From positions 1,703,693 to 1,767,692 of the forward strand of contig NZ_CP008852.1 of the NCBI RefSeq assembly GCF_000725345.1: 64,000 bases of DNA. The letters run 5' to 3'. Positions 9,497-24,595 of this stretch are shown piece after piece. The DNA is from Pelosinus sp. UFO1. Its GTDB lineage: Bacteria > Bacillota > Negativicutes > DSM-13327. The notes beneath the pieces were generated by a model. It was given only the letters and a program-made list of their open reading frames with translations. It had not been told where the DNA came from and made no database searches. The first letter of the stretch is position 1; every line of letters begins with the position of its first letter. Both the position numbers and the translations under genes were made by a program.

Positions 9497-9528
9497 AAAA
9501 CGGTGATTGCGAGCTGTTGAGGGGGTAC

Positions 9529-10758
9529 ATGGTGAGTGAACTAATTAATAATCGGGAGTATAGGCAGAAAGTCTTAAAAGAAATAATTTTGGAACTTCAT
9601 CAAGGGAGGTCAGTACTAGAAGTTAAAGGGAAATTTGATAAAATAGCTGTGGGTATGGATCCGGCTGAACTTTCTTTAATTGAACAAGGACTGATAAATG
9701 AAGGGCTGCCAGTGGAAGAAGTACAGCGTCTTTGTGATGTTCATGCTGCAGTCTTTCGCGAAGCGTTAGAAAAAAATCCAGAATTAACAGTCGTCCCAGG
9801 TCACCCAGCAGCAATTTTTATCGCAGAAAATCAGGCATTGCAAGAACTAATGGATCAAGAAATTAAGCCTATTATTAGTAAACTAAAACAAGCATCAGAT
9901 CAGACAGAAAAGGCATTAGTCTTACAGTTGACTGAAAAATTAAACCTCCTTTGGGATGTTGATAAACATTATCGGAGAAAAGAAGATCTTATCTTTCCCT
10001 TCCTGGAAAAGTATGAAATTACTGGACCGCCCAAAGTTATGTGGGGTGTCGACGATAAAATAAGGAATTTGTTAAAAGAGACAAAAGGCTTAGCTGTTGC
10101 TTATCAACCATCTATAAAAGAAGGGTTAATTGCTAAAACGGAAGAAACATTGGTACAAATCGAAGAAATGATTTTTAAAGAAGAGAAAATATTTCTGCCA
10201 ATGGCGATGGAGACACTTTCAGAAGATGAATGGTATCGTGCTCTCATTGATAGTGATGAAATAGGTTATTGCTTAGTGGAACCCCAGTGTGGCTGGAAAC
10301 CATATCGGGAGGATTTAAAGGAAGAATCAATCCATCTACTCAATGAAAATACAGGCGGGCAGGTTAAGTTCGAAACTGGGGTTTTATCACCTCAGGAAAT
10401 TGAATTGATTTATCGGCATTTACCAGTTGATATTACTTTTGTTGATAAAAATGGAGTCGTCAAATTTTTCTCTGCACCCAAGGATCGAATTTTCCCTCGC
10501 ACCCGAACCATTATAGGTCGTAAGGTAGAAAACTGCCATCCTCCAGCGAGTGCTGACATTGTAGAAAAAATAGTTGAGGACTTTAAAAACGGGAAAAAGG
10601 ACAATGAAGACTTTTGGATCAAGATGGGAGATAAATTCGTATACATTCGTTATTTTGCAGTAAAGAACAGGGAAGGAAATTTCTCTGGAGTTTTAGAAGT
10701 TACGCAAGATATTAAACCGATCCAAGCTATCACGGGAGAAAAGCGAATTACAGACTAA
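9529..10758 (+). CDS. DUF438 / hemerythrin / PAS protein
   Basis: A cytoplasmic sensor-like or di-iron protein of about 409 aa. Residues 1-80 are a DUF438 helical domain. Residues 85-245 are a hemerythrin-like HHE region with candidate iron ligands in GHPAAIFIAENQ, DKHYRRKEDLIFPFLEKY and KEEKIFLPMAMETL. Residues 290-405 are a PAS domain (VDITFVDKNGVVKFFS... ending VLEVTQDI). Relatives are often tied to oxygen or nitric oxide stress; this is family knowledge and not shown here. GAGGGGG at 9519-9525 favours ATG 9529 or GTG 9532 over the upstream TTG 9517. A hairpin made from the first NreC-like module follows the stop codon. Confidence 0.82.
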   Translation: MVSELINNREYRQKVLKEIILELHQGRSVLEVKGKFDKIAVGMDPAELSLIEQGLINEGLPVEEVQRLCDVHAAVFREALEKNPELTVVPGHPAAIFIAENQALQELMDQEIKPIISKLKQASDQTEKALVLQLTEKLNLLWDVDKHYRRKEDLIFPFLEKYEITGPPKVMWGVDDKIRNLLKETKGLAVAYQPSIKEGLIAKTEETLVQIEEMIFKEEKIFLPMAMETLSEDEWYRALIDSDEIGYCLVEPQCGWKPYREDLKEESIHLLNENTGGQVKFETGVLSPQEIELIYRHLPVDITFVDKNGVVKFFSAPKDRIFPRTRTIIGRKVENCHPPASADIVEKIVEDFKNGKKDNEDFWIKMGDKFVYIRYFAVKNREGNFSGVLEVTQDIKPIQAITGEKRITD

Positions 10759-10783: not shown

Positions 10784-10849
10784 TAGGGAATTCCCACGAC
10801 TTAAAGTGGGGATTCCCTACATTACTTTTTACTAGAAAAAGAGTATAAT
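10784..10849 (+). promoter_or_regulatory. NreC-like tandem operator and promoter, copy 1
   Basis: Distal palindrome TAGGGAATTCCCAC at 10784-10797 and proximal GTGGGGATTCCCTA at 10806-10819; their centres lie 22 bp apart. After the proximal site comes CATTACTTTTTA, then TATAAT at 10844-10849. The -35 region (ATTACT) is poor, as expected for an activated promoter. The two palindromes are also nearly complementary to each other (12 of 13), so the RNA could form a hairpin that ends the upstream gene. The HPP gene starts about 88 bases after the -10. Confidence 0.78.
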
Positions 10850-10936
10850 AAATTTCTTACTGATATAGATGTATTTGCATTATTTGTAAAAAAATCTATG
10901 AATTTAATTAGATATCGGAGAGGAATAAGGACATGT

Positions 10937-11431
10937 ATGCATACTACTTCGCGGCAAATATTATATCGCAAATTAAACTTTAAACACATTAGTTGGTCTT
11001 CTTTAGGGAGTGTTTCTGCGATTGGCATTATCGCATATTTATCGGCAATTACAGGATATGCCTTTCTAATTCCTCCTTTTGGTGCAACATGTTATATCGT
11101 TTTTTCCATTCCAGATAGTGCATTTGCTCAGCCGCGAAGTATTATTGGCGGACATGTTCTTGCTGTTTTTGTAGGATTACTCTGCTCATTTATCTTTGGG
11201 TCAAACTGGTGGTCTCAGGGTATAGCAATAGGAGCCATTGTGGCTGGCATGCATCTAATTCGTGTAAATCATCCACCAGCCGCCGCCACTACCATATTTC
11301 TGACATTACAAGAACACAATAATTGGAATGTTTTTTATACGGTATTGATTGGTAGCATCATGATTGCAGCTGTAGCAGTGGTTTTTAATAAATATGTAAT
11401 AAAGCACAAATATCCTCATTATTGGTGGTAA
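10937..11431 (+). CDS. HPP-family membrane protein, possible nitrite transporter
   Basis: A 164-aa integral membrane protein with about four to five hydrophobic segments and the HPP family hallmark: PPFGATCYIVFS near residue 50, the PRSIIGGH loop near 73, and the diagnostic NHPPAAATT near 115. HPP proteins in cyanobacteria and chloroplasts include nitrite transporters. ATG 10937 follows AAGG at 10927-10930 and is preferred over ATG 10898, which lacks a ribosome site. It stands between the DUF438 gene and asrABC and shares the tandem palindrome promoter of asrA and narK. I infer a role in nitrite or nitrate movement. Confidence 0.82.
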   Translation: MHTTSRQILYRKLNFKHISWSSLGSVSAIGIIAYLSAITGYAFLIPPFGATCYIVFSIPDSAFAQPRSIIGGHVLAVFVGLLCSFIFGSNWWSQGIAIGAIVAGMHLIRVNHPPAAATTIFLTLQEHNNWNVFYTVLIGSIMIAAVAVVFNKYVIKHKYPHYWW

Positions 11432-11495
11432 ATACGATATATTTTAAAAAACGTTAATGTATTATTTGGATAAGAATTTATTGAAATAAACAATG

Positions 11496-11561
11496 TAGGG
11501 AATTTCCTTTAGTAATGTAGGGAATTCCCTACATTACTTTTTAGTAGTTAAATATTAAAAT
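11496..11561 (+). promoter_or_regulatory. NreC-like tandem operator and promoter, copy 2 (asrABC)
   Basis: Distal site TAGGGAATTTCCTT (11496-11509) and perfect proximal palindrome TAGGGAATTCCCTA (11518-11531) have centres 22 bp apart. The proximal core extends to a 22-bp perfect palindrome, 11514-11535. CATTACTTTTTA and then TAAAAT at 11556-11561 follow at the same distance as in the other two copies. asrA begins 116 bases after the -10. Confidence 0.85.
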
Positions 11562-11676
11562 TAGTCTGATATATATTCAGTGCAAAGAACCCTAGGACGG
11601 TAAGGATTCTTAATGAGATAAGGTTAAAAGCAGGATCTTCAAAAGAGTAAAAATAAGCGTAGGAAAGGAAAAAATA

Positions 11677-12669
11677 ATGGCATATAAAGTAACAGGGATA
11701 AGGTTCAATCAGTACTTAAAAGAATTAGGAAAGGAGTATCAAATTTTTGCTCCAGTAGGTCTCTCTGGAAAGGGGGCCTTTACCGACACGGATTCTGTTA
11801 GATATCAGAAAATAACAAGCTTGGAAGAGATAGAACTATCGATAAAGTCTAATTTTTCGGCAAAAGAAATTCTTTTGCCCATAACTGAGACTTTATTTTA
11901 TTTTAGCGAGGACAATTGGACAGAACCCAAGATTCATGAAAAAAAGATATTGCTGTTTTTGAGAAGTTGTGACATACATGGCATAAAAAGGCTTGATGAC
12001 ATTTATCTGAAAAATGGATGTGAGGATCCTTACTATAAAGTATTTCGGGAAAAAGTAAGAATCTGCCTCATAGAATGTCAAGAAAGCTTTGCAAACTGTT
12101 TTTGCGCTAGTATGAATACGAATGTTACAGACAAATATGACATGTTTATCCATGTCGAGGATGATTTTGTATATGTAGGAATTAATAATAAAGAGTTGGA
12201 TCGGCTAGATGAAAAGGTAGTCGATCTCTCTCCGCGTTTTGTAATGGAAAATAAAATAAAGGTAACGTTACCAGAATCGGTAACAATTGGACTAACTGAG
12301 TCTCCAATTTGGGAAGAATACTCCTCCCGGTGCATCGGTTGTGGAAGATGCAGCTTCGTCTGTCCAACGTGTAGTTGTTTTTCTATGCAGGATATCTTTT
12401 ATAAAGAAAATAAGAACATGGGGGAGCGAAGACGAGTTTGGTCTTCCTGTATGGTTGATGGTTTTACCGATATGGCAGGGGGGCATGCTTTCCGTAAAAA
12501 ACAAGGAGAGCGCATGCGGTTTAGAGTGATGCATAAGCTTCATGATTATAAAAAACGCTTTGGTTATCATATGTGCGTTGGATGTGGAAGATGCGATGAT
12601 GCGTGCCCAGAATATATATCAATTTCTCATTGTGCAAATAAGTTGAACCATGTAGTGGAGGAGAAATAA
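11677..12669 (+). CDS. asrA: Anaerobic sulfite reductase subunit A (ferredoxin-type)
   Basis: Electron-transfer subunit of the three-part AsrABC siroheme reductase of the cytoplasm. The 330-aa protein is similar in length and layout to AsrA of Salmonella and clostridia. It has a long N-terminal domain, then a cysteine-rich motif CIGCGRCSFVCPTCSCF near residues 219-235, and a second CVGCGRCDDACPEY near 300-313, both suited to 4Fe-4S clusters. The ATG is preceded by TAGGAAAGGA. The stop codon overlaps the asrB start by one base, so the subunits are translationally coupled. The NreC-like promoter upstream suggests nitrate or anaerobic control instead of sulfite control. Confidence 0.9.
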   Translation: MAYKVTGIRFNQYLKELGKEYQIFAPVGLSGKGAFTDTDSVRYQKITSLEEIELSIKSNFSAKEILLPITETLFYFSEDNWTEPKIHEKKILLFLRSCDIHGIKRLDDIYLKNGCEDPYYKVFREKVRICLIECQESFANCFCASMNTNVTDKYDMFIHVEDDFVYVGINNKELDRLDEKVVDLSPRFVMENKIKVTLPESVTIGLTESPIWEEYSSRCIGCGRCSFVCPTCSCFSMQDIFYKENKNMGERRRVWSSCMVDGFTDMAGGHAFRKKQGERMRFRVMHKLHDYKKRFGYHMCVGCGRCDDACPEYISISHCANKLNHVVEEK

Positions 12670-13463
12670 TGAACAATACGTATCTACCTTTTAAATCCCG
12701 AATTATAAAAATAATTCCTCATACTGCTATTGATTATACTTTCTTGATGGAATATAAGGGCGATGTAAAGCCAGGACAATTTTTTGAAGTATCCATTCCT
12801 AAATACGGCGAAGCTCCGATTTCTGTAAGTGAAATTGGTGAAGGTTATGTTGGGTTGACAATTCGCAAAGTTGGTTTGGTTACCAACACAATTCATGAAC
12901 TACAGGAAGATGGTGTACTATTTCTAAGGGGACCATATGGTAATGGTTTTGATATTAACTTATTTCAATCAAAGGAAGTAATTGTAGCTGCTGGTGGGAC
13001 GGGATTAGCTCCAGTCAGAGGTGTTGTAGATTATTTCGCTGAGAATGTTAATGAGGTTACGTCTTTTTCGCTGATTGCGGGATTCAAATCACCTAAAGAT
13101 ATACTGTATAAAGATGATTTTGAGAAGTGGCAAAACAACATTAACGTCATAGTAACGGTCGATGGCTCAGAGGATGTAATGTATAAAGGAAATACGGGGC
13201 TCATTACAAAATATGTACAGGATATTCACATTGAAAATCAAGCAGAGGTAAATGTAATTGTTGTTGGTCCACCCATAATGATACGTTTTACTGTGGCAGA
13301 ATTTTTAAAAAGAGGGATTAAAGAAGAAAATGTATGGGTGTCATACGAAAGAAAAATGTGCTGTGGTGTTGGTAAATGCGGGCACTGTAAAATTGACGAT
13401 ACCTATATTTGCCTTGAAGGACCTGTATTTAACTATGTAAAAGCTAAGAATTTTATTGATTAA
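12669..13463 (+). CDS. asrB: Anaerobic sulfite reductase subunit B (FAD/NAD(P)H)
   Basis: The 264-aa flavoprotein subunit, which passes electrons from NAD(P)H toward AsrA and AsrC. It has the ferredoxin-NADP reductase fold. A beta-barrel FAD domain spans residues 10-95 and contains the RGPYGNGF flavin loop near 90. A nucleotide-binding domain begins at VIVAAGGTGLAPVRG near 105. The C-terminal cysteine cluster (CCGVGKCGHCKI, then TYICLEGP) resembles the 2Fe-2S site of dihydroorotate dehydrogenase subunit K. The ATG shares one base with the asrA stop. Confidence 0.9.
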   Translation: MNNTYLPFKSRIIKIIPHTAIDYTFLMEYKGDVKPGQFFEVSIPKYGEAPISVSEIGEGYVGLTIRKVGLVTNTIHELQEDGVLFLRGPYGNGFDINLFQSKEVIVAAGGTGLAPVRGVVDYFAENVNEVTSFSLIAGFKSPKDILYKDDFEKWQNNINVIVTVDGSEDVMYKGNTGLITKYVQDIHIENQAEVNVIVVGPPIMIRFTVAEFLKRGIKEENVWVSYERKMCCGVGKCGHCKIDDTYICLEGPVFNYVKAKNFID

Positions 13464-13483
13464 TAGGGAGGGTAGTATGAACC

Positions 13484-14431
13484 ATGGATATAAATACAAA
13501 AATGTTAAAAAAGAATGCCTTTCGCATAACAAAGGAAAGAGATAAGACTGCTGTTCGAATAAGAGTCCCAGGAGGAGAAATGGCAGTCAAATATCTAGAG
13601 ACGGTTAGGCATGTAGCTGAAACCTTTGGTAATGGTACCATTCATATCACAACGCGACAAGGCTTTGAAATCCCAGGTATTAGTATAGATAAAATGGCAG
13701 AGGTGAATGCCATAATCCAAAGTCTGATCGAAGGACTTGAGATTAACCAAACCTATTCTAATGCAGGGTATCCAGCAGCGGGTACCAGAAATGTAGCGGC
13801 CTGTATTGGTAGTCGGGTATGTCAATTTGCTAATTATGATACAAGTGCTTTTGCTCAAAGAATAGAGAAAGTGATATTCCCCAATGACTATCATGTGAAA
13901 ATTGCTCTTACCGGTTGCCCTAATGATTGCATTAAGGCAAGAATGAATGATTTTGGTATTATTGGCATGAACGAACCACAGTATGATTCCTATCGGTGTA
14001 TCGGCTGCCAAGCATGTGTAAAAACTTGTGAAAAGAAATCTGCTGGTGCATTGAAGGTTGAAAACTTCAAGGTGGTCAGGAATTCTGATAAATGTATTGG
14101 CTGTGGAGAATGTGTGCTAAAGTGTCCTACAGGAGCTTGGACGAGAAATTCAGAAAAATTATATCAGCTTGTAATTATGGGGAGAACGGGTAGAAAGAAT
14201 CCGAGAATTGCTCAACCCTTTATCAAATGGATTAATGAAGAAAGTATTTTAGAGATACTTAAGAATACCTATGACTATGTTCATCAATATATCGATAAAG
14301 ATGCACCAGGGGGAAAAGAGCATGTAGGGTACATTGTTGATCGTACTGGTTATCAAATATTTAAAAATTGGGTATTAAAAGATGTAAATTTAAATAGCGA
14401 GGCACAGGTAGCAGAATATATCTATTGGTAA
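13484..14431 (+). CDS. asrC: Siroheme reductase subunit C (AsrC type), sulfite or nitrite reducing
   Basis: The catalytic subunit, 315 aa, of the dissimilatory/anaerobic sulfite reductase superfamily, which reduces sulfite to sulfide or nitrite to ammonia with six electrons. The siroheme/4Fe-4S ligands are visible as C107-x5-C113 and C145-x3-C149 (ACIGSRVC and TGCPNDC). A ferredoxin insert with two clusters follows, at C172/175/178/182 and C204/207/210/214. THITTRQ-like HITTRQGFEIPG lies near residue 54. ATG 13484 is 11 bases from GGGAGGG; a nearer ATG at 13477 opens only a 22-codon frame. Sequence alone does not separate sulfite from nitrite as substrate, but the NreC-like promoter and the nar neighbours favour nitrite. 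Confidence 0.87.
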   Translation: MDINTKMLKKNAFRITKERDKTAVRIRVPGGEMAVKYLETVRHVAETFGNGTIHITTRQGFEIPGISIDKMAEVNAIIQSLIEGLEINQTYSNAGYPAAGTRNVAACIGSRVCQFANYDTSAFAQRIEKVIFPNDYHVKIALTGCPNDCIKARMNDFGIIGMNEPQYDSYRCIGCQACVKTCEKKSAGALKVENFKVVRNSDKCIGCGECVLKCPTGAWTRNSEKLYQLVIMGRTGRKNPRIAQPFIKWINEESILEILKNTYDYVHQYIDKDAPGGKEHVGYIVDRTGYQIFKNWVLKDVNLNSEAQVAEYIYW

Positions 14432-14471
14432 ATTGGCAATATTGAGAAAAATGAAATATTTTTCGACGATG

Positions 14472-14537
14472 TAGGGAGTTTCCAGAATGTATATAGGGAA
14501 TTCCCTACATTACTTTTTATCGGCAAAATATTAAAAT
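14472..14537 (+). promoter_or_regulatory. NreC-like tandem operator and promoter, copy 3 (narK-narGHJI)
   Basis: Distal site TAGGGAGTTTCCAG (14472-14485) and perfect proximal palindrome TAGGGAATTCCCTA (14494-14507) have centres 22 bp apart. CATTACTTTTTA follows, then TAAAAT at 14532-14537 at the same distance as in copies 1 and 2. narK starts 45 bases after the -10. Confidence 0.85.
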
Positions 14538-14582
14538 AAATCTAACAATATAGACTTCATATTATAAAAGGGGGACTAGTCA

Positions 14583-15884
14583 TTGTATAAACTGAAAACA
14601 TGGAATCCAGAAGACCCTATATTCTGGGAACAGGAGGGGAAAAAAATTGCGAACCGGAATTTATGGATTTCGGTTCCTGCACTATTAATATCTTTTTGTA
14701 TTTGGATGTTATGGTCAGTAGTTGCCGTTAATCTTAATAGTGCAGGGTTTAGCTTTAGTGCAGAGCAGTTATTTAACTTAGCCGCTTTACCAGGATTATC
14801 AGGTGCAACGTTGCGTATCTTTTATGCTTTTGTAGTACCTGTTTTTGGGGGACGGAATTGGACTGTCATTAGTACTGCATCACTTTTAATTCCCGCCATT
14901 GGTATTGGCTATGCGGTGCAGGATACTACCACAAGCTATACAACCATGGTTATATTGGCCGTATTATGTGGCTTAGGCGGAGGAAATTTTGCATCATCGA
15001 TGGGGAATATTAACTTCTTTTTTCCAAAAAAACAGAAGGGAACTGCCCTAGGGATAAATGGGGGCTTGGGTAATGTAGGTGTTAGTGTAGTGCAGTTTGT
15101 AGCGCCCCTTGTGATCACCTGTGGGATTTTTGGCAGTATGGGTGGTGAACCTCAAATTATAATGAATGGGGGGATTGGGAAATCCATTTGGTTACAAAAT
15201 GCTGCTTTTATATGGATTATTCCCATTGTATTGATTACCGTGGCTGCTTTTTTCGGTATGAATAATTTGGAGACAGCCAAAGCATCAGTTCGTGAACAAT
15301 TCATTATATTCAAATGTAAACATATGTGGGTTATGAGTTTTATTTATACCATTGCTTTTGGGTCTTTTATCGGTTATTCTGCAGTGTTTCCTCTACTGAT
15401 CAAATTTCAATTTTCAGGTATTAATCCTTTGCAATATGCCTTTTTAGGGCCTCTAGTGGGTGCCCTCTCTCGTCCCATTGGAGGATGGGCCGCTGATAAA
15501 TACGGCGGGGCGCGGGTCAGCTTTTGGTCTATTTTTGTTATGATAGGTGCCACCTTAGGCGTTATCTTCTTTATGAACCAACATAATTTTATCGCATTTT
15601 TTATCATGGCATTAATTTTGTTTGTTACTTCTGGGGCGGCGAGTGGCTCTACCTTTGGAATGCTTTCTAAGATCTTTAATCCGAAAGAAGCAGCACCAGC
15701 CATTGGATTTATTTCAGCAGTTGCTGCGTATGGCGCATTTTTTGTTCCTAAGGCTTTTGGTTGGTCAACGCAGGCTACGGGATCGCCATCCATGGCCTTA
15801 TATGGTTTTATTGCCTCTTACATAATCAGTCTATTTGTAATTTATCATTATTACAATCGTAGAGACGCAGAGATAAAATGTTAA
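14583..15884 (+). CDS. narK: Nitrate/nitrite transporter, MFS NarK type
   Basis: A 433-aa, 12-segment major facilitator of the NNP family, which moves nitrate in and nitrite out across the cytoplasmic membrane. Nitrate signature segments are seen as GINGGLGNVGVSVVQF near residue 158 and TSGAASGSTFGMLSKIF near 350. The MFS motif SRPIGGWAADKYGG lies near 298. The TTG start at 14583 follows AAGGGGG with normal spacing. narG begins 22 bases after the stop, so narK heads the nar operon. The immediate upstream promoter is NreC-like copy 3. Confidence 0.93.
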   Translation: MYKLKTWNPEDPIFWEQEGKKIANRNLWISVPALLISFCIWMLWSVVAVNLNSAGFSFSAEQLFNLAALPGLSGATLRIFYAFVVPVFGGRNWTVISTASLLIPAIGIGYAVQDTTTSYTTMVILAVLCGLGGGNFASSMGNINFFFPKKQKGTALGINGGLGNVGVSVVQFVAPLVITCGIFGSMGGEPQIIMNGGIGKSIWLQNAAFIWIIPIVLITVAAFFGMNNLETAKASVREQFIIFKCKHMWVMSFIYTIAFGSFIGYSAVFPLLIKFQFSGINPLQYAFLGPLVGALSRPIGGWAADKYGGARVSFWSIFVMIGATLGVIFFMNQHNFIAFFIMALILFVTSGAASGSTFGMLSKIFNPKEAAPAIGFISAVAAYGAFFVPKAFGWSTQATGSPSMALYGFIASYIISLFVIYHYYNRRDAEIKC

Positions 15885-15906: not shown

Positions 15907-18900
15907 ATGGATGAAAAAGAATTACCATTATGGAAAAAACTGAATTTCTTTAAAACAAAAGAAAGGTCGCAAGATGGCTGGAGCCAAGTAGTTGCAGATG
16001 ACAGAGAATCCGAAGGGATATATCGTAAACGTTGGAGTTATGACAAAGTCGTGCGTACTACCCATGGGGTAAACTGTACAGGATCTTGTAGTTGGAAGGT
16101 TTTTGTGAAAGATGGTATTATTACCTCAGAAAATCAGCAGACGGATTACCCTTCTACAGGGCCTGATATGCCAGAGTTTGAGCCTCGAGGCTGTCCGAGA
16201 GGTGCAAGTTTTTCCTGGTATGTATATAGCCCTCTTAGGATCAAATATCCCTATATTCGTCGTCAACTATTGGCCTTATGGCGTGAGGCGGTAGAAAATA
16301 GTCAGGGCAATTTAGTGAAAGCTTGGGGTTCTATAGTAGAAGATGCTGATAAAGCAAAGCAATATAAACAAGTACGGGGTAAGGGTGGTTTTGTACGCGC
16401 AAACTGGCAAGAGGTTAATGAAATCATGTCAGCGATGCTGTTATATACCATTATCACCTATGGACCTGACCGTATTGCTGGCTTTACGCCCATACCTGCC
16501 ATGTCTATGGTAAGTTATGCGGCTGGGTCCCGATTTTTATCTCTCTTAGGTGCTCCTATGTTAAGTTTTTACGATTGGTATGCCGATTTGCCCCCTGCAT
16601 CACCTCAAATATGGGGGGAACAAACGGATGTGCCGGAAAGTAGTGACTGGTATAACGCAGGGTATATCATAATGTGGGGCTCCAATGTACCAATGACTCG
16701 GACACCTGACGCCCATTTTATGACGGAAGTCCGATATAAAGGTACGAAGGTAGTAGCCGTTAGTCCAGATTATGCGGAAAATGTGAAATTTGCTGATAAT
16801 TGGCTTCCTGTTAATCCAGGCTCGGATGCGGCCTTAGCCCAGGCTATGACCCACGTTATTTTGAAAGAGTTCTATATTGAGAAACAAGAAGAATATTTTT
16901 TGGATTACGCTAAACAGTTTACGGATATGCCATTTATGGTGCTTATTGAAAAAAATGATACGGTATATACTCCAGGCCGATTTGCACGGGCTAGTGATCT
17001 TGGGTTAGCAGGGAATAAAGGAGAGTGGAAACCAGTATTATGGGATACAGTACAAGATGGCTTCGCTATTCCGAAGGGAACCATTGGTCAACGTTGGGAT
17101 AGTACAGGACAATGGAATCTAAAAATGGAGAGTGAAGCTGGTGACACTTTATCCCCATTATTAACACTCCTAGGGCAAGAAGATGAGCAAATCTGTGTAA
17201 ATCTTCCTGAATTTACGGAAGGTGGCACTGGAATTGTTAAACGAGGTATTCCTGTTAAATTAATCATGAAAAATGGTAAACTACTACGAGTCACAACTGT
17301 ATTTGATCTTATGTTAGCTCAATATGGAATCGATCGCGGTCTGCCTGGGAAATATCCGATAGATTATTATGATGAAGCAACCTATACTCCAGCTTGGCAA
17401 AAGAAGCATACGAATGTTGAGACTGATTTGGTCATTCAGATAGCTAGAGAATTTGCTCAAAATGCTGCCGATACAAAAGGAAGATCCATGATTATCATGG
17501 GAGCAGGCATTAATCATTGGTTCAATGGAGACACCATTTATCGGGCTATATTGAATTTGGTGATTCTAACCGGTTGCCAAGGGGTAAATGGCGGCGGCTG
17601 GGCTCATTATGTAGGGCAGGAAAAGTGTCGTCCGATAGAAGGATGGGGTACTGTGGCTTTCGCTCGCGACTGGTCAATGCCGCCACGCCTTCAGAATGCG
17701 ACCTCCTTTTTTTACTTTGCTACCAATCAGTGGCAGTATGAAACCCATAGCATGGAAGGATTAAAATCACCAACAGTGGCAAAAAGTCGCTACAGCCATC
17801 CGGCAGACTATAACGTATTGGCCGCTCGCCTCGGATGGATGCCTTCTTATCCTCAGTTTAGCCAAAACTCGTTACAGCTTAGTACAGAGGCCACTGAAGC
17901 AGGAGCTGAAACTACTGAAGAAGTCATTAGCCATGTCGTCAAAAAGTTAAAGGACAGAAAGATGTCTTTTGCTGTGGAAGATCCTGATAATGCCAAAAAT
18001 CATCCTCGCGGATTGTTTGTCTGGCGTTCTAATCTAATTTCTAGTTCTGGTAAGGGACATGAGTATTTTTTGAAATATCTACTGGGAGCTTCCCATGGAC
18101 TTTTATCGGAACCCAATGAAGAGTTGAGACCAGAGGAAGTTCATTGGAATAATGCTCCTCCAGAAGGCAAGCTTGATTTATTGGTTAATTTAGACTTTCG
18201 CATGGCTGGCACCGCTCTTTATTCTGATATAGTATTACCTGCTGCTACTTGGTATGAAAAAACCGATTTAAGTAGTACCGATATGCATCCTTTTGTTCAT
18301 CCATTCAATCCCGCGATTAATCCACCATGGGAAGCCAAGTCTGATTGGGATATTTTCAAGGATTTGGCTAAGACCTTTTCTACTATGGCGAAAGAATATC
18401 TACCTGAGGTACAACAAGATATTGTGGCAGTGCCTCTTATGCATGACTCACCAGGAGAAATTGCCCAGCCCTTTGGTAAAGTGCTAGATTGGCGCAAGGG
18501 GGAAGTGGAGGCGATACCTGGTAAGACGATGCCGAATATGGTAATGGTAGAGCGGGACTATAAAGAAATTTATAATAAATTTACTTCTCTTGGACCATTA
18601 CTAGAAAAAAGTCCAGTAGGTGCTCATGGTATTGCTTTTCCTGTTAAAGAACAATACGAAGAACTTAAAAAAATTAATGGAAAGAACATGGTGCCTGGTG
18701 TAGCCTTTGCTCGTCCTAGTATTGAGACAGCTCGCCAAGCGGCAGAAGCAATACTTACTCTATCGAGTGCGACAAATGGCAAATTGGCTATGAAAGCCTG
18801 GGAAGATGCAGAAAAGAAAACGGGTATGGAACTTAAGGATATCAGCGCGGGTCGTGCAGGAGAAAAATTTACTTTTAATGACATTACGGTACAACCAAGG

Positions 18901-19596
18901 CAAGTCATTCCTACCCCTGTATTTACTGGCTCAAATAAAGGAGATAAACGCTACTCCCCCTTTACGACCAGTATCGATCATTTGATGCCTTTCCGTACGT
19001 TGACAGGACGTCAACATTTCTATATTGATCATGAAATCATGCTAGAGTTTGGCGAAGCCATGCCTATCTATAAACCGACTTTATCTCCAGTGTTATTTGC
19101 TGGCAAAGAATATAAGCCCGAAGCGGAAGGTAAAGAAATTGTTTTGCGATATCTTACCCCTCATGGCAAATGGAATATACACAGTACCTATCAAGATAAC
19201 CTGCATATGCTTACCTTATTTCGTGGTGGACCTCATGTATGGGTGAATCATCAGGATGCCTTACTGGCGGATCTTAAGGATAATGATTGGGTGGAAGTGT
19301 ATAATCGTAATGGTGTAGTTTCTGCTAGAGTCGTGGTGAGTCATCGTATGCCTAGAGGAACTCTTTATATGTATCATGCGCAAGATAAGCACATTAATGT
19401 TCCTGGTTCATCTATTACTGGACAGCGGGGCGGGACACACAATAGCCCTACTCGAGTTCATGTTAAGCCCACCCAGTGTATTGGCGGATACGCCCAGCTT
19501 AGCTATGGGTTTAACTATTACGGGCCAATTGGCAATCAGAGAGATATTTATGTTGCGGTTCGTAAGTTAAAGGAGGTGGCTTGGCTTGAAGATTAA
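15907..19596 (+). CDS. narG: Respiratory nitrate reductase alpha subunit
   Basis: The 1229-aa catalytic subunit, on the cytoplasmic side of the membrane, reduces nitrate to nitrite at a bis-MGD molybdenum centre. The FS0 cluster ligands H53, C57, C61 and C96 are present (HGVNCTGSC... and RGCPRG). The Mo-coordinating aspartate is D227 in YADLPPASPQIWGEQTDVPES-type context, as in E. coli NarG. Later blocks include INHWFNGDTIYRAIL and the C-terminal GQRGGTHNSPTRVHVKPTQ-like cofactor-binding region. There is no Tat-like signal, consistent with cytoplasmic facing. The stop overlaps narH by 11 bases. The length is full. Confidence 0.97.
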   Translation: MDEKELPLWKKLNFFKTKERSQDGWSQVVADDRESEGIYRKRWSYDKVVRTTHGVNCTGSCSWKVFVKDGIITSENQQTDYPSTGPDMPEFEPRGCPRGASFSWYVYSPLRIKYPYIRRQLLALWREAVENSQGNLVKAWGSIVEDADKAKQYKQVRGKGGFVRANWQEVNEIMSAMLLYTIITYGPDRIAGFTPIPAMSMVSYAAGSRFLSLLGAPMLSFYDWYADLPPASPQIWGEQTDVPESSDWYNAGYIIMWGSNVPMTRTPDAHFMTEVRYKGTKVVAVSPDYAENVKFADNWLPVNPGSDAALAQAMTHVILKEFYIEKQEEYFLDYAKQFTDMPFMVLIEKNDTVYTPGRFARASDLGLAGNKGEWKPVLWDTVQDGFAIPKGTIGQRWDSTGQWNLKMESEAGDTLSPLLTLLGQEDEQICVNLPEFTEGGTGIVKRGIPVKLIMKNGKLLRVTTVFDLMLAQYGIDRGLPGKYPIDYYDEATYTPAWQKKHTNVETDLVIQIAREFAQNAADTKGRSMIIMGAGINHWFNGDTIYRAILNLVILTGCQGVNGGGWAHYVGQEKCRPIEGWGTVAFARDWSMPPRLQNATSFFYFATNQWQYETHSMEGLKSPTVAKSRYSHPADYNVLAARLGWMPSYPQFSQNSLQLSTEATEAGAETTEEVISHVVKKLKDRKMSFAVEDPDNAKNHPRGLFVWRSNLISSSGKGHEYFLKYLLGASHGLLSEPNEELRPEEVHWNNAPPEGKLDLLVNLDFRMAGTALYSDIVLPAATWYEKTDLSSTDMHPFVHPFNPAINPPWEAKSDWDIFKDLAKTFSTMAKEYLPEVQQDIVAVPLMHDSPGEIAQPFGKVLDWRKGEVEAIPGKTMPNMVMVERDYKEIYNKFTSLGPLLEKSPVGAHGIAFPVKEQYEELKKINGKNMVPGVAFARPSIETARQAAEAILTLSSATNGKLAMKAWEDAEKKTGMELKDISAGRAGEKFTFNDITVQPRQVIPTPVFTGSNKGDKRYSPFTTSIDHLMPFRTLTGRQHFYIDHEIMLEFGEAMPIYKPTLSPVLFAGKEYKPEAEGKEIVLRYLTPHGKWNIHSTYQDNLHMLTLFRGGPHVWVNHQDALLADLKDNDWVEVYNRNGVVSARVVVSHRMPRGTLYMYHAQDKHINVPGSSITGQRGGTHNSPTRVHVKPTQCIGGYAQLSYGFNYYGPIGNQRDIYVAVRKLKEVAWLED

Positions 19597-21067
19597 AGCA
19601 CAAATAGCTATGGTAATCAATTTAGATAAATGTATTGGCTGTCATACTTGCAGTGTGACCTGTAAAAATACTTGGACAAATCGTGAAGGCGCTGAGTATA
19701 TGTGGTTTAATAATGTGGAAACCAAGCCAGGTATTGGGTATCCCATGGAGTGGGAAAATCAAGAAAAGTATAAGGGGGGCTGGGAATTACAAGATGGTAA
19801 ACTCCGGCTCAAAGGCGGTAGCCGCTTAGCAAAGTTATTACTTAAATTATTCCACAATCCCGATATGCCTACCCTTGATGATTATTACGAACCTTGGACA
19901 TACGATTATGAGAAACTAATTAACAGTCCTACAAAGCGTTATCAGCCAGTGGCTCGTCCCAAATCAGTAATTACCGGTAAAAATATGGACTTAAAGTGGG
20001 GGCCAAACTGGGAAGATGATTTAGCCGGTGCCCATCAAACTGGTACTAGAGATCCGAATGTAGTGAAGATGCAGGAAAAAGTTAAATTTGAGTTTGAACA
20101 AACTTTCATGGCCTATTTGCCAAGACTTTGTGAGCATTGCTTAAATCCTGGTTGTGTGGCTGCGTGTCCTTCAGGCGCCATTTACAAGCGGGAAGAAGAT
20201 GGGATTGTTTTGGTGGATCAAGATGCTTGCCGCAGTTGGCGTATGTGTATGACTGGATGTCCCTATAAAAAGGTTTATTTTAACTGGCAAACTCATAAAG
20301 CGGAAAAATGTATTTTTTGTTTTCCAAGGGTGGAGTCAGGTCAACCTACTGTTTGCTCGGAAACTTGTTCAGGCCGTGTTCGGTATATGGGAGTCATATT
20401 GTATGATGCTGATAGAGTAAAAGAGGCAGCATCTACTAGCAATGAACAGGAGTTATATCAAGCGCAGCTTAGTGTATTTTTGGATCCTACTGATCCTGAA
20501 GTGATTGCGAAGGCTCGCTTAGATGGCATTCGTGAAGACTGGTTAGAAGATGCAAAACGTTCTCCTATTTATGATTTAGCCGTCCGATACGGTATAGCAC
20601 TGCCATTACATCCTGAATTTCGCACCATGCCAATGGTATGGTATATACCGCCTCTTAGCCCGATTGTAAGTGTGGCAAAGGAGCAAGGCGTAAATGAAAA
20701 TCTATTCCCGCTACTAGATGATATGCGTATTCCTATCGAATACTTAGCTAATATCTTAACGGCTGGTAATACAAAAGCAGTTAAGTCGGCCTTAGGTAAG
20801 CTGCTAGCTATGCGTACCTATATGCGATCAATCAACACAAACCAAAAAGTCGACAAGGATAAGCTAAGAGAGGCCGGCCTTGATGAAATTGCTGTAGAGC
20901 GTATGTATCGCCTTCTAGCTATTGCAAAATATGAGGATCGTTTTGTAATTCCCACATCACATCAAGAAAAATACGTTAATGTATATAAACAGCAAGGTAG
21001 CTGCGGTTATTCCCTGCCCCAAGGGAGCTCATGCTATGGTATTAGAGGTGAAGAAGATGGTAGATAA
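19586..21067 (+). CDS. narH: Respiratory nitrate reductase beta subunit
   Basis: The 493-aa iron-sulfur subunit that carries electrons from NarI heme to NarG. Cluster ligands are visible at C16/19/22/26 (CIGCHTCSVTC), then CEHCLNPGCVAACP, then CRSWRMCMTGCPYKK, where Trp replaces a cysteine as expected for the 3Fe-4S cluster, and CIFC...VCSETCSGR. The TTG start at 19586 follows AGGAGGT at 19571-19577. It overlaps both narG (11 bases) and narJ (11 bases), which implies coupled translation. Confidence 0.96.
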   Translation: MKIKAQIAMVINLDKCIGCHTCSVTCKNTWTNREGAEYMWFNNVETKPGIGYPMEWENQEKYKGGWELQDGKLRLKGGSRLAKLLLKLFHNPDMPTLDDYYEPWTYDYEKLINSPTKRYQPVARPKSVITGKNMDLKWGPNWEDDLAGAHQTGTRDPNVVKMQEKVKFEFEQTFMAYLPRLCEHCLNPGCVAACPSGAIYKREEDGIVLVDQDACRSWRMCMTGCPYKKVYFNWQTHKAEKCIFCFPRVESGQPTVCSETCSGRVRYMGVILYDADRVKEAASTSNEQELYQAQLSVFLDPTDPEVIAKARLDGIREDWLEDAKRSPIYDLAVRYGIALPLHPEFRTMPMVWYIPPLSPIVSVAKEQGVNENLFPLLDDMRIPIEYLANILTAGNTKAVKSALGKLLAMRTYMRSINTNQKVDKDKLREAGLDEIAVERMYRLLAIAKYEDRFVIPTSHQEKYVNVYKQQGSCGYSLPQGSSCYGIRGEEDGR

Positions 21068-21602
21068 GAAAATGTTGCGATTGCTATCTATTTTGCTTCA
21101 ATATCCAAAAAGCAGTTGGTTAAAATTTGATGAGTTACGTCAGCTGGCAAGTGAATTGGAACACTTGCCAATGGAGGAAAGGGTACATTCTCTTCTAGAT
21201 TACTTGGAACATAATACTTGTGAGGAATTAGCTGAGTTTTATGTAAGTACCTTTGATTTTAGTGAACATTGTAATCTGTATATTACCTCCCTACTCTGTC
21301 CCGATGATCAAAAGCGTGGGCAAGTACTAGCCGACTTGAAAGGTATCTACCGACAAGCTGGATTTGAGGTAGATACTGAGGAATTACCTGATTACCTTCC
21401 TATGCTACTTGAATTTCTAGCCATTGCTAACCAGGAATCATGTAAACAAATTTTAGAGATCGTAAATCCTGGTATTGAAAAACTATGGCAGCAACTTCTA
21501 GAAAAACGCAGTCCCTATGCTGCATTGCTTGAAGTTTGTGTAGGATTTACAGTGCCAATAGCATGTGCAGAAACTACCCACAGAGGAGAAGGTATATCAT
21601 GA
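21057..21602 (+). CDS. narJ: Nitrate reductase assembly chaperone (delta subunit)
   Basis: A cytoplasmic helical chaperone of the NarJ/TorD type, needed for cofactor insertion and membrane docking of NarGH. From ATG 21057 the product is 181 aa; GAGGTG at 21045-21050 is the ribosome site. A longer reading back to 20979 would lie wholly inside narH and is unlikely. Family features are LLQYPKSSWL near the N-terminus, the EEL-AEFYVSTFDFSE block, and the LPDYLPMLLEFLA motif near residue 110. It overlaps narI by ATGA. Confidence 0.9.
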   Translation: MVDKKMLRLLSILLQYPKSSWLKFDELRQLASELEHLPMEERVHSLLDYLEHNTCEELAEFYVSTFDFSEHCNLYITSLLCPDDQKRGQVLADLKGIYRQAGFEVDTEELPDYLPMLLEFLAIANQESCKQILEIVNPGIEKLWQQLLEKRSPYAALLEVCVGFTVPIACAETTHRGEGIS

Positions 21603-22300
21603 ATTTTATAGAACAATTTCTATGGGTGATTTTTCCTTATATAGCATTAACTATCTTTATAGTAGGACATATTTATCGCTATAACATGGATCAATTGGGC
21701 TGGACGGCTAAATCCAGTGAATTGTTGGAAAAACGCAGTCTACAGTGGGGCAGTATATTATTCCATGCTGGTATATTAGCTGTAGTTGGAGGTCATATTT
21801 CAGGTCTCTTGATACCCAAGACTTTTTTTGAATCACTTGGAGTGAACGAGCATATGTACCATATGGCCGCTGTTTATGGTGGAGGTCCCGCAGGGGTAGT
21901 CACGTTAGTAGGTATTCTGATTTTAACTTTCCGTCGTTTTGGTAATGACCGTGTATTTGCTGTTAGTAGTAAGGCTGATTTACTGGTAGCTATTTTAGTG
22001 CTAGTAGAAGTAGTCTTAGGGTTGACAAGTACAGCTACAAATGTATTCCAGGTGACGAACTTTGATTATCGAGAAACGATTAGTCCTTGGCTTAGAGGGT
22101 TATTGTTTTTGAAACCGGATGCTTCCTTTATGACTGGTGTACCTTTGGTATTTAAGCTTCATGTTGTGACGGGCTTTGGAATGTTTGCTATTTGGCCGTT
22201 TACAAGATTGGTGCATGTATGGAGTATGCCAGTCGAATATATATACAGAACCTATATTCAATATTTTAGTCGGGATTTAAAAGATAAATCCTTTCATTGA
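21599..22300 (+). CDS. narI: Nitrate reductase gamma subunit (cytochrome b)
   Basis: A membrane cytochrome b subunit that oxidises quinol and passes electrons to NarH. The 233-aa protein has five hydrophobic segments. Candidate heme b histidines lie in LFHAGILAVVGGH (segment two) and in KLHVVTGFGMFAIWPFTRLVHVWS (last segment). ATG 21599 overlaps the narJ stop and follows GAGGAGAAGG at 21583-21592. It is the last gene of the narKGHJI unit; a hairpin without T-run follows. Confidence 0.95.
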   Translation: MNFIEQFLWVIFPYIALTIFIVGHIYRYNMDQLGWTAKSSELLEKRSLQWGSILFHAGILAVVGGHISGLLIPKTFFESLGVNEHMYHMAAVYGGGPAGVVTLVGILILTFRRFGNDRVFAVSSKADLLVAILVLVEVVLGLTSTATNVFQVTNFDYRETISPWLRGLLFLKPDASFMTGVPLVFKLHVVTGFGMFAIWPFTRLVHVWSMPVEYIYRTYIQYFSRDLKDKSFH

Positions 22301-22306
22301 TTTCAT

Positions 22307-22338
22307 AGGGCAATCCATGTTGTATTTGAGATTGCCCT
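22307..22338. terminator. Hairpin between narI and nreA
   Basis: AGGGCAATC (22307-22315) and GATTGCCCT (22330-22338) pair perfectly. The next bases are TATGTAATAA, so this is a partial terminator or processing site that could lower nreABC expression relative to nar. Confidence 0.5.
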
Positions 22339-22421
22339 TATGTAATAACCCTGCGACTTTGCTTTTAAAAGGAAACTGTGATAAATTGAAATTAAGATTA
22401 AATACTTCGGGAGAATACTTT

Positions 22422-22856
22422 ATGAATACATTAGAGAGTACAATCAATAAATGCTTAGAGGATTTGCGACTTAGGGCGGGGGCTGATTTCTCAGCGTTAG
22501 CTCTCCAGGAGTCAAGAGAATCTACGATCCGCTGGAAGTATGCAGTGGGTAATAAAAATGAACGGTTTCGAAGGATTGTACTGCGTCTGGGCAAGGGAAT
22601 TGCAGGGAAAGTATTGATGTCAGGCAGACCCATGATATTGGAACATTATGAACCTCGGCAACATGAAGATCCGCAAGAATACCCGATTCTTTACGCGGAA
22701 GAATTGCAATCTGCCCTAGGAGTGCCAGTACTAACAAAGGGAAAAGTCAAAGGAGTGCTTTTAGTGGGTTACCGTACTCCTTGCGTAATTGAGGGAGTAG
22801 TAATTGATTTATCCAAACGAGTTGCCACAGAACTAGAAAATAGTATAGACTTCTAA
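22422..22856 (+). CDS. nreA: NreA-like GAF-domain nitrate sensor
   Basis: A 144-aa single GAF domain. In staphylococci NreA binds nitrate and modulates NreB; here the same function is inferred from length, fold pattern (LGKGIAGKVLMSGRPMIL... then ALGVPVLTKGKVKGVLLVG) and position next to the sensor kinase and nar genes. ATG 22422 is preferred because GGGAG at 22409-22413 gives 8-base spacing. An upstream TTG at 22317 would lie in the narI hairpin. The kinase gene starts 34 bases after the stop. Confidence 0.78.
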   Translation: MNTLESTINKCLEDLRLRAGADFSALALQESRESTIRWKYAVGNKNERFRRIVLRLGKGIAGKVLMSGRPMILEHYEPRQHEDPQEYPILYAEELQSALGVPVLTKGKVKGVLLVGYRTPCVIEGVVIDLSKRVATELENSIDF

Positions 22857-22890
22857 AAAATCATATATGTGCTACATTGGGGGCTGTCGT

Positions 22891-23961
22891 ATGAGGCAAA
22901 AAACTTCCGAATCCTTATTAAAAATGATTTTTCAGTATGTAAGCGATGCAATACTCATTTTAGACGAACAAGGAATGATTGTGGATGCCAATCCATCGAT
23001 TGAAATTCTGACAGGTTATTGTACTAAGGAGCTTATTCATAAAGTGAAATTAAGCAGTATTTGCCAGGGAATGGACAGATGCGCAGATTTCACCGTTTGT
23101 ACAAATTGTTTTACGAAGTTAGGAAGTATTTCTTCTTTTGAAATTCGCTTATTGCATAGGAATGGGCAAATTTTTTCCGCAGCTGCAAGTACAACTCGTT
23201 TGCAAGAACACATGGGAGGATTGTTGGTAGTTGTACTAAGGGATATGTCAGAACATAATAAAGAGGAACAAAAGCAGTTACAAAAAAAGATGGCTAATTA
23301 TATGATTCAAGCACAAGAAGAAGAACGTAAGAGAGTATCTCGCGAATTACATGACGGAGTCGGACAAAGTATTTATAGTATGATTGTAGGGCTTAATATC
23401 ATTGGGCAAATGGAACTTAAAGATGAATTGAAAGAACATTTTCAAATGGTACAAGATATGGCAGTTCAGGCTTTAAATGAAGTACGATGCATTGCTGTCG
23501 ATCTTAGACCCTCCTCCCTCGACGATTGGGGCCTGTTACCAGCCCTACGGTCTTTCATAAAACAGTTTGAGCGAACCTATGGAATTGTAACAACGTTATC
23601 TGTTGTAGGAAAAGAACGTCGTTACGAATCAGCGGTTGAAACGGCCCTATATCGTATCTGTCAAGAGGCTATGGTTAACGCAGCTAAATATGCGAACATT
23701 GATAAACTACAGATCGATTTTGAAGAACAGGATCAGCAGTTGCACTTAGTAGTTACAGATTTTGGGCGGGGTTTTAATATAGAAAAGATTGAAATACAGG
23801 GAACAGGACTTGGGCTGTACGGTATGCGAGAGCGAGCAGAATTGATTGGCGGTACTCTTGATATTACATCCAACTTTGGCCATGGCACTACGATTCGGGT
23901 TAATGTTCCCATAACTAAACAGGAGGAAACAACTTATGACCATCCGTGTTTTAATAGCTGA
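22891..23961 (+). CDS. nreB: NreB-like PAS sensor histidine kinase
   Basis: A soluble cytoplasmic sensor kinase, 356 aa, expected to sense oxygen through an iron-sulfur cluster in its PAS domain and to phosphorylate the adjacent NarL-type regulator. PAS residues 10-115 contain C44, C58, C64, C70 and C73. Staphylococcal NreB, as I recall it, uses a CxxC-x11-CxxC pattern; here the spacing C-x5-C-x5-C-x2-C differs. The HisKA_3 domain follows with phospho-acceptor H154 in SRELHDGVGQ, and the HATPase domain has GTGLGLYGMRERAELIGG near residue 300. There are no membrane segments. ATG 22891 follows a GGGGG tract. It overlaps nreC by 26 bases. Confidence 0.85.
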   Translation: MRQKTSESLLKMIFQYVSDAILILDEQGMIVDANPSIEILTGYCTKELIHKVKLSSICQGMDRCADFTVCTNCFTKLGSISSFEIRLLHRNGQIFSAAASTTRLQEHMGGLLVVVLRDMSEHNKEEQKQLQKKMANYMIQAQEEERKRVSRELHDGVGQSIYSMIVGLNIIGQMELKDELKEHFQMVQDMAVQALNEVRCIAVDLRPSSLDDWGLLPALRSFIKQFERTYGIVTTLSVVGKERRYESAVETALYRICQEAMVNAAKYANIDKLQIDFEEQDQQLHLVVTDFGRGFNIEKIEIQGTGLGLYGMRERAELIGGTLDITSNFGHGTTIRVNVPITKQEETTYDHPCFNS

Positions 23962-24595
23962 CGATCACGCTGTTGTCCGTTCAGGATTAGCTATGCTAAT
24001 TAATTCTCAGCAGGACATGGAGGTGGTTGGGGAAGCTGCAGATGGAAGGGAAGCTGTAGAATTAGGATTAAAACTTCTTCCACAAGTCGCACTTATGGAT
24101 TTGAGTATGCCTCCAGGTGAGAATGGTTTAATTGCTACTGCAAGATTAAAAGAATTGCTACCACAAACTCGTGTGCTGATCTTGACTATGCATGATGATG
24201 AAGAATATTTGTTTCAATCTCTAAAGGCAGGGGCAATGGGATACATCTTAAAGAACGCTCCTCAATTTGATTTAATTCAGGCGATTCGTACGGTTCACCA
24301 AGGAGAATCATATTTGTATCCATCTGCCGCAAAATCGTTAATTGAAGGATTCTTGCGACAGGGAAATAAAAGGGAAGAGGTTGAGTCACTAACATTATTA
24401 ACAGAACGAGAAAGGCAAACATTACGCTTGGTAGCCATGGGTTATGCTAATAAAGATATTGCTGAGCAACTTTGCCTTTCCGTCAAAACCGTTGAAGCTT
24501 ATAAAACTAGAATAATGGAAAAACTCCAGTTTAAAACTAGGCCTGAAATGGTGAAATACGCCATAAAAAAAGGACTATTAGATTTAGAGGGATAA
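23936..24595 (+). CDS. nreC: NreC-like NarL/LuxR response regulator
   Basis: A 219-aa DNA-binding regulator. The receiver domain (1-120) has the acidic pair D9/D10, phospho-acceptor D55 in ALMDLSMPP, and a late Lys in ILKNAP. The LuxR helix-turn-helix (about 150-212) reads LTERERQTLRLVAMGYANKDIAEQL and SVKTVEAYKTRIMEKL. In staphylococci NreC activates nitrate and nitrite reductase operons. Three tandem TAGGG-N4-CCCTA-type operators upstream of the HPP gene, asrA and narK are its probable targets here. AGGAGG at 23921-23926 precedes the ATG. Confidence 0.88.
   Translation: MTIRVLIADDHAVVRSGLAMLINSQQDMEVVGEAADGREAVELGLKLLPQVALMDLSMPPGENGLIATARLKELLPQTRVLILTMHDDEEYLFQSLKAGAMGYILKNAPQFDLIQAIRTVHQGESYLYPSAAKSLIEGFLRQGNKREEVESLTLLTERERQTLRLVAMGYANKDIAEQLCLSVKTVEAYKTRIMEKLQFKTRPEMVKYAIKKGLLDLEG

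Follow-up and report, generated by a model that had tools for sequence, protein, structure and literature searches.

In the 64,000-nucleotide stretch of the Pelosinus sp. UFO1 genome analysed here (the window; the genome is a single contig of 5.1 Mb), three plus-strand transcription units are preceded by the same promoter module. These units encode an HPP-family membrane protein, the siroheme sulfite reductase AsrABC, and a nitrate/nitrite transporter with respiratory nitrate reductase (narK-narGHJI) followed by nreABC-like genes. Each module consists of two palindromes of the TAGGG-N4-CCCTA type with centres 22 bp apart and a -10 hexamer at a fixed distance (Table 1). We propose, with a probability of about 0.85, that each is an activator-dependent promoter under the NreC-like response regulator encoded in the same window, which would switch nitrate uptake and reduction, asrABC and the HPP gene together.

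The tandem palindromes at the three loci are confirmed. The distal sites start exactly where the initial annotation placed them, with the proximal sites 22 bp later in all three copies. As described there, the proximal site is perfect in modules 2 and 3 (TAGGGAATTCCCTA) and near-perfect in module 1 (GTGGGGATTCCCTA, two mismatches). A small correction concerns the description of both sites as TAGGG-N4-CCCTA-type: it holds for the proximal site, but the distal one is clearly degenerate, with 2-3 mismatches in 10. A common CATTACTTTTTA follows the proximal site in all three modules, and each -10 hexamer starts 29 bases past the first C of CCCTAC. The verdict of "no good -35" was right, because the best match at normal spacing reaches only 3 of 6 letters. 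For transcription starting 7 bases downstream of the -10, the proximal site would be centred at -43.5, agreeing with the earlier estimate of about -43, and the distal site at -65.5.

How unusual is this arrangement? A scan of the whole 5.1-Mb genome (up to 2 mismatches in 16) found the module in exactly three places, all within the window. The reversed control tandem pattern had no match in the genome, and a control search with the tandem at shifted spacing found no module. Single palindromes with up to 2 mismatches are not enriched in the window, where 20 occur against an expectation of 18.1. Whether or not a -10 at offset 29 is required, single TAGGGN4CCCTA sites carrying 1-2 mismatches stay at or below the control level across the genome.

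The same geometry recurs at nar promoters far from Pelosinus. NreA-like genes were searched in a wide Firmicutes sample, in which 110 of the 399 genomes of one class matched; 26 of these exceed the curated NreA-family cut-off and are presumably of the staphylococcal type. We read 86 NreA-like loci, all outside Pelosinus, and searched the 400 bp upstream of narG or narK at these NreA-bearing loci for pairs of TAGGGN4CCCTA with up to 4 mismatches in 20, using random regions as the control. Of the 67 regions upstream of narG, 30 have the tandem at spacing 21 and two at spacing 22; for the 62 regions upstream of narK, the corresponding counts are 5 and 9. Other spacings (14-19 and 24-35) gave at most one tandem each, and the random control gave 7 tandem counts in 344 regions over spacings 20-23. 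NreA-bearing loci with no nar genes nearby (L097-L099) showed no clear tandem. Among 34 non-redundant held-out promoters, the hexamer at offset 29 matches TATAAT at 5-6 of 6 letters in 25 and carries the key letters A2 and T6 in 30, with a mean of 4.47 matches versus 1.4-2.9 at other offsets. Offset 29 is a true prediction for these loci, because the window fixed its value before they were fetched. A matrix trained on the 34 held-out promoters only, with no Pelosinus sequence, and run over both strands of the window gives the three modules the top three scores of any position, in this order (45.6, 37.7 and 33.6); with 20 shuffled windows, 19 stayed below 15 and one reached 28.3. In the first distant case (G634, NarG 69% identical), the tandem before narK is spaced at 22 bp, with GATAAT at offset 29. 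Altogether the geometry is found elsewhere at narG, narK, nreA and ScdA promoters.

Further tandems with a -10 at offset 29 were seen at L177:2190; L189:9757; and L190:8470, L191:4797, L198:8099, L200:8099 and L203:7988. The genes behind them encode a ScdA-type hemerythrin, NreA itself and a 155-residue COX2-domain protein, the last followed by a membrane protein of about 550 residues resembling an oxidase or nitric oxide reductase subunit. The regulon in those NreA-bearing genomes, which belong to the sampled class, may reach beyond nitrate genes.

Within the Pelosinus family, ten genomes (G000-G009) were compared. Modules, an NreC ortholog, an NreA-like gene and AsrC occur together in G000, G003, G004, G007 and G008, and none of the four was found in G001, G002, G005, G006 or G009; because nar, asr, nre and the module travel as a block, this co-occurrence alone cannot tell which gene needs the module. 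The one look-alike, in G001, is an inverted repeat flanked by unrelated genes and has no -10 at offset 29. In the module-bearing genomes, the NreC ortholog is 89-100% identical (E < 1e-120), and modules 2 and 3 are kept in G003, G004, G007 and G008. Across Pelosinus species, the site cores, the 22-bp spacing and the -10 are kept while the spacers diverge. In G003 and G004, a deletion has shortened the HPP gene, whose promoter has also lost its distal operator; in G004, the proximal site before the decayed gene retains its -10 at offset 29. The shortened gene (L073, L074) lies on the minus strand upstream of asrA.

Could the modules simply be recent promoter copies or a mobile repeat, alike by descent and without function? 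The asr and nar modules do have about 60 bp in common, including ATATTAAAAT and TCTGA. Yet the genome holds no further copies, and between Pelosinus species it is the spacers that differ and not the site cores, spacing or offset. Moreover, the geometry stands at the unrelated promoters listed above, and the distal site was lost just where the HPP gene decayed. We find this explanation scarcely credible. The claim that NreC activates all three units is supported at the level of sequence, by recurrence of the module at nar promoters of many NreA/NreC-bearing Firmicutes, among them staphylococcal-type genomes, and by co-occurrence within the family, and we regard the NreC-type interpretation of the modules as well supported.

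Which protein would bind these sites? According to a review (PMC8139620), the target of phosphorylated NreC is a GC-rich palindrome found at narGHJI, nir and narT. The nreC-like gene of the window lies 9.4 kb downstream of the nar module. The DNA-binding domain of its product shares 36-41 of 69 residues with most NreC proteins of staphylococcal and related type, and its recognition helix, SVKTVEAYK, is nearly the same as the staphylococcal-type SVKTVEAHK. The modules might instead be operators of some other NarL/FixJ protein or of an unlinked nitrogen-oxide regulator: their binding by NreC is a prediction, and the genome encodes at least three further NarL-type regulators about 39-41% identical to NreC. 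However, regulators of about 40% identity are also present in the module-free sister species, from which the NreC ortholog is missing, and the same architecture stands alongside nreABC in distant genomes. We consider control by another regulator improbable.

Several observations weigh against control by NreC. The NreA-like protein scores 105 bits versus a curated NF038250 cut-off of 175, and the cysteines in the NreB PAS domain are arranged as C-X5-C-X5-C-X2-C, not as the staphylococcal C-X2-C-X11-C-X2-C. The tandem is absent (at up to 4 mismatches in 20) from 35 of 67 narG and 47 of 62 narK-like upstream regions, although several of these tandem-negative regions nevertheless score well with the matrix. 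All nar promoters in the held-out comparison set come from NreA-bearing loci, and its control set consists of random regions. The motif TAGGGN4CCCTA is a reconstruction from promoters. NreC binding, activation and the transcription starts at the modules are predicted, and the Pelosinus modules also look like terminators, as discussed below. The placement of nreABC-like genes downstream of narI in the initial annotation is correct as to position, but a strict NreABC assignment does not hold: a NarL-type NreC with a like helix and the order narGHJI-nreABC were found, alongside the low NreA score and the different NreB motif. Because of these two departures, we speak of an NreABC-like system and of NreC-type promoters; palindrome type, tandem spacing of 21-22 bp and a -10 at offset 29 are all present at the latter. 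The best solved-structure relatives of the NreA-like protein are NreA itself (4pau, 4iuh). An extra upstream NreB cysteine (LCDIC) occurs in three of four sister Pelosinus genomes, as if one iron-sulfur ligand had moved.

How might the activator-dependent promoters work? Two dimers of phosphorylated NreC would bind, one per palindrome, on the same face of the DNA. The proximal dimer, near -43.5, would cover the position of the missing -35 and recruit RNA polymerase to the -10 in the manner of a class II activator. We infer that the signal is low oxygen with nitrate, sensed by the NreB-like kinase together with the NreA-like protein. With narK-narGHJI and nreABC on, nitrate would be taken up and reduced; with asrABC on, nitrite would be converted to ammonium; and the HPP transporter would be switched on together with both.

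In Pelosinus, the modules carry a second layer, which the initial annotation missed: as RNA, each can fold into a hairpin. Eleven Pelosinus modules fold at -22.8 to -32.4 kcal/mol (z -5.6 to -8.9), and a twelfth fits the same stem. In the 12-bp core of these stems, each cell is Watson-Crick or G-U despite base variation. The asr and nar stems are lengthened by AATG...CATT flanks and followed by 4-5 T; T53-T55 are invariant among Pelosinus modules, and each module starts 26-65 nt past a stop codon. Some pairing would arise from any two palindromes set a constant distance apart, so part of this is expected; what goes beyond that expectation is the T-run, the flanks and variation restricted to G-U. 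When distal and proximal arms were permuted within Pelosinus, true partners paired better than swapped ones at p 0.007, which is only suggestive because the rows are related. Against a criterion of a G+C-rich stem with a T-run within about 2 nt, the gap from stem to T-run is 2-3 nt in the asr and nar modules and 6 nt in the HPP module. The asr and nar modules, judged by these features, likely also end the upstream transcript; as RNA of the upstream gene, hairpin and T-run would probably act together in doing so. The HPP module, with its T-run 6 nt away, is a weak candidate terminator.

Are the modules, then, intrinsic terminators of the three upstream genes and nothing more, their promoter-like features being accidental? 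The shared stem of all 12 Pelosinus modules examined, the strong folds and core pairing, the invariant T residues and the positions just past stop codons all speak for termination. But termination does not predict a -10 at a fixed offset of 29 bases, and the T-run of module 1 starts 6 nt past its stem. Furthermore, the held-out nar promoters share both spacing and offset with a median fold of only -13.5 kcal/mol and, mostly, no T-run. An accidental promoter thus seems very improbable to us, and the held-out promoters led us to reject termination as the sole explanation. Keeping to NreC-dependent promoters, we offer a tentative extension, to which we give clearly less than even odds: the operator and the terminator of the preceding gene may form one element of about 40 bp under double constraint, and this switch may make AsrABC a dedicated nitrite reductase in a route from nitrate to ammonium. 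Protein binding and RNA pairing would then both be kept, and the same stretch would close one unit and open the next.

Why would a sulfite reductase be controlled with nitrate respiration? In Acididesulfobacillus acetoxydans, asrABC is up 29-fold on nitrate and AsrABC is proposed as a nitrite reductase (PMC10949509). NreC-type control of asrABC in Pelosinus, predicted here from promoter sequence, lends independent support to that proposal. No module is present at the AsrC loci L026 and L027, from Sporomusa malonica and Lucifera butyrica, and membership of asrABC in this regulon is therefore not universal. Among named relatives, Pelosinus fermentans JBW45 and a Pelosinus metagenome-assembled genome have the AsrC closest to that of the window, each 91% identical. 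Plant and cyanobacterial relatives transport nitrite, and by analogy the HPP protein here is possibly a nitrite transporter. If these assignments are true, the three units jointly cover nitrate uptake, reduction of nitrate to nitrite, movement of nitrite by HPP and reduction of nitrite to ammonium by AsrABC. An NreC-type regulon would thereby reach into the class Negativicutes, in a Pelosinus-like anaerobe, and asrABC would be tied to nitrate respiration through regulation. It also yields a checkable NreC promoter rule for Firmicutes: palindromes 21-22 bp apart and a -10 29 bases past the proximal CCC. New here are this sharper rule, the new targets and the possible overlap of operator and terminator.

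The system resembles staphylococcal NreABC in palindrome type, tandem spacing of 21-22 bp, -10 offset of 29, the position of nreABC next to narGHJI and an NreC DNA-binding domain that is over half identical. It differs in that the Pelosinus targets include asrABC and the HPP gene, the modules double as hairpins, and NreA and NreB depart from the staphylococcal type in score and cysteine pattern as described above. The sulfide-responsive NreBC of Bacillus licheniformis likewise has a NarL-type regulator related to NreC, though distant, and is reported to recognise sites resembling those bound by S. carnosus NreC, but it works without NreA and controls sulfur-oxidation genes (PMC9918477). DevR/DosR of Mycobacterium tuberculosis, also of the NarL family, binds cooperatively to at least two closely packed sites, the proximal one overlapping the -35 element (PMC3029386); its site sequence and signals are its own and its targets are not homologous. 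A. acetoxydans, like Pelosinus as we propose it, induces both Nar and asrABC on nitrate, but its nar and asr genes are far apart by locus number, and the available portion of the report describes neither regulator nor operator (PMC10949509).

Table 1. Promoter modules, RNA hairpins and genes of the nitrate region in the window (positions counted from its first letter)
Feature	Position	Strand	Details
Module 1, tandem operator before HPP gene	10784..10819	+	Distal TAGGGAATTCCCAC, proximal GTGGGGATTCCCTA, centres 22 bp apart
Module 2, tandem operator before asrABC	11496..11531	+	Distal TAGGGAATTTCCTT, proximal TAGGGAATTCCCTA
Module 3, tandem operator before narK-narGHJI-nreABC-like genes	14472..14507	+	Distal TAGGGAGTTTCCAG, proximal TAGGGAATTCCCTA
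Predicted -10 TATAAT, HPP promoter	10844..10849	+	29 bases after first C at 10815; predicted start near 10856
Predicted -10 TAAAAT, asrABC promoter	11556..11561	+	29 bases after first C at 11527; predicted start near 11568
Predicted -10 TAAAAT, narK-narGHJI promoter	14532..14537	+	29 bases after first C at 14503; predicted start near 14544
RNA hairpin in module 1	10784..10831	+	-25 kcal/mol, T-run 6 nt past stem; weak possible terminator of DUF438/hemerythrin/PAS gene
RNA hairpin and TTTTT in module 2	11492..11543	+	-25.1 kcal/mol, z -6.1; possible terminator of HPP gene
RNA hairpin and TTTTT in module 3	14468..14519	+	-23.2 kcal/mol, z -5.7; possible terminator of asrABC
DUF438/hemerythrin/PAS protein gene	9517-10758	+	
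HPP-family membrane protein gene	10898..11431	+	Pfam TM_HPP PF04982, 135.7 bits
asrABC, siroheme sulfite reductase genes, candidate nitrite reductase	11677..14431	+	TIGR02910, TIGR02911, TIGR02912, each above cut-off
narK-family nitrate/nitrite transporter gene	14583..15884	+	NF011608 446 bits, TIGR00886 309.6 bits, both below cut-offs
narGHJI, respiratory nitrate reductase	15907..22300	+	TIGR01580 narG 1912 bits; narJ and narI equivalogs; NarH by Pfam
nreA-like gene, GAF domain, putative nitrate sensor	22317..22856	+	NF038250 105 bits
nreB-like PAS histidine kinase gene	22867..23961	+	Four-cysteine motif C-X5-C-X5-C-X2-C
nreC-like response regulator gene	23936..24595	+	Predicted binder of the three modules

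For the HPP gene, the in-frame start at 10937 is likelier than 10898. The DUF438/hemerythrin/PAS gene, which adjoins the HPP unit upstream, has no module of its own and encodes a possible oxygen or nitric oxide sensor. Molybdenum cofactor genes come next after the nreC-like gene.

The metagenome-assembled genome G007 has two pairs of asr and nar modules, on contigs C109 and C166 (L025, L071); one pair is almost the same as that of JBW45, and this assembly is probably a strain mixture. Among the held-out loci, staphylococcal-type narG promoters at L133, L134, L138 and L144 have TTGTGAA or TGTGAA, which resembles half a Rex site, between the proximal site and the -10. Two tandem sets lie about 120 bp apart upstream of narG in L094 (16703 and 16822) and L095 (16768 and 16887).

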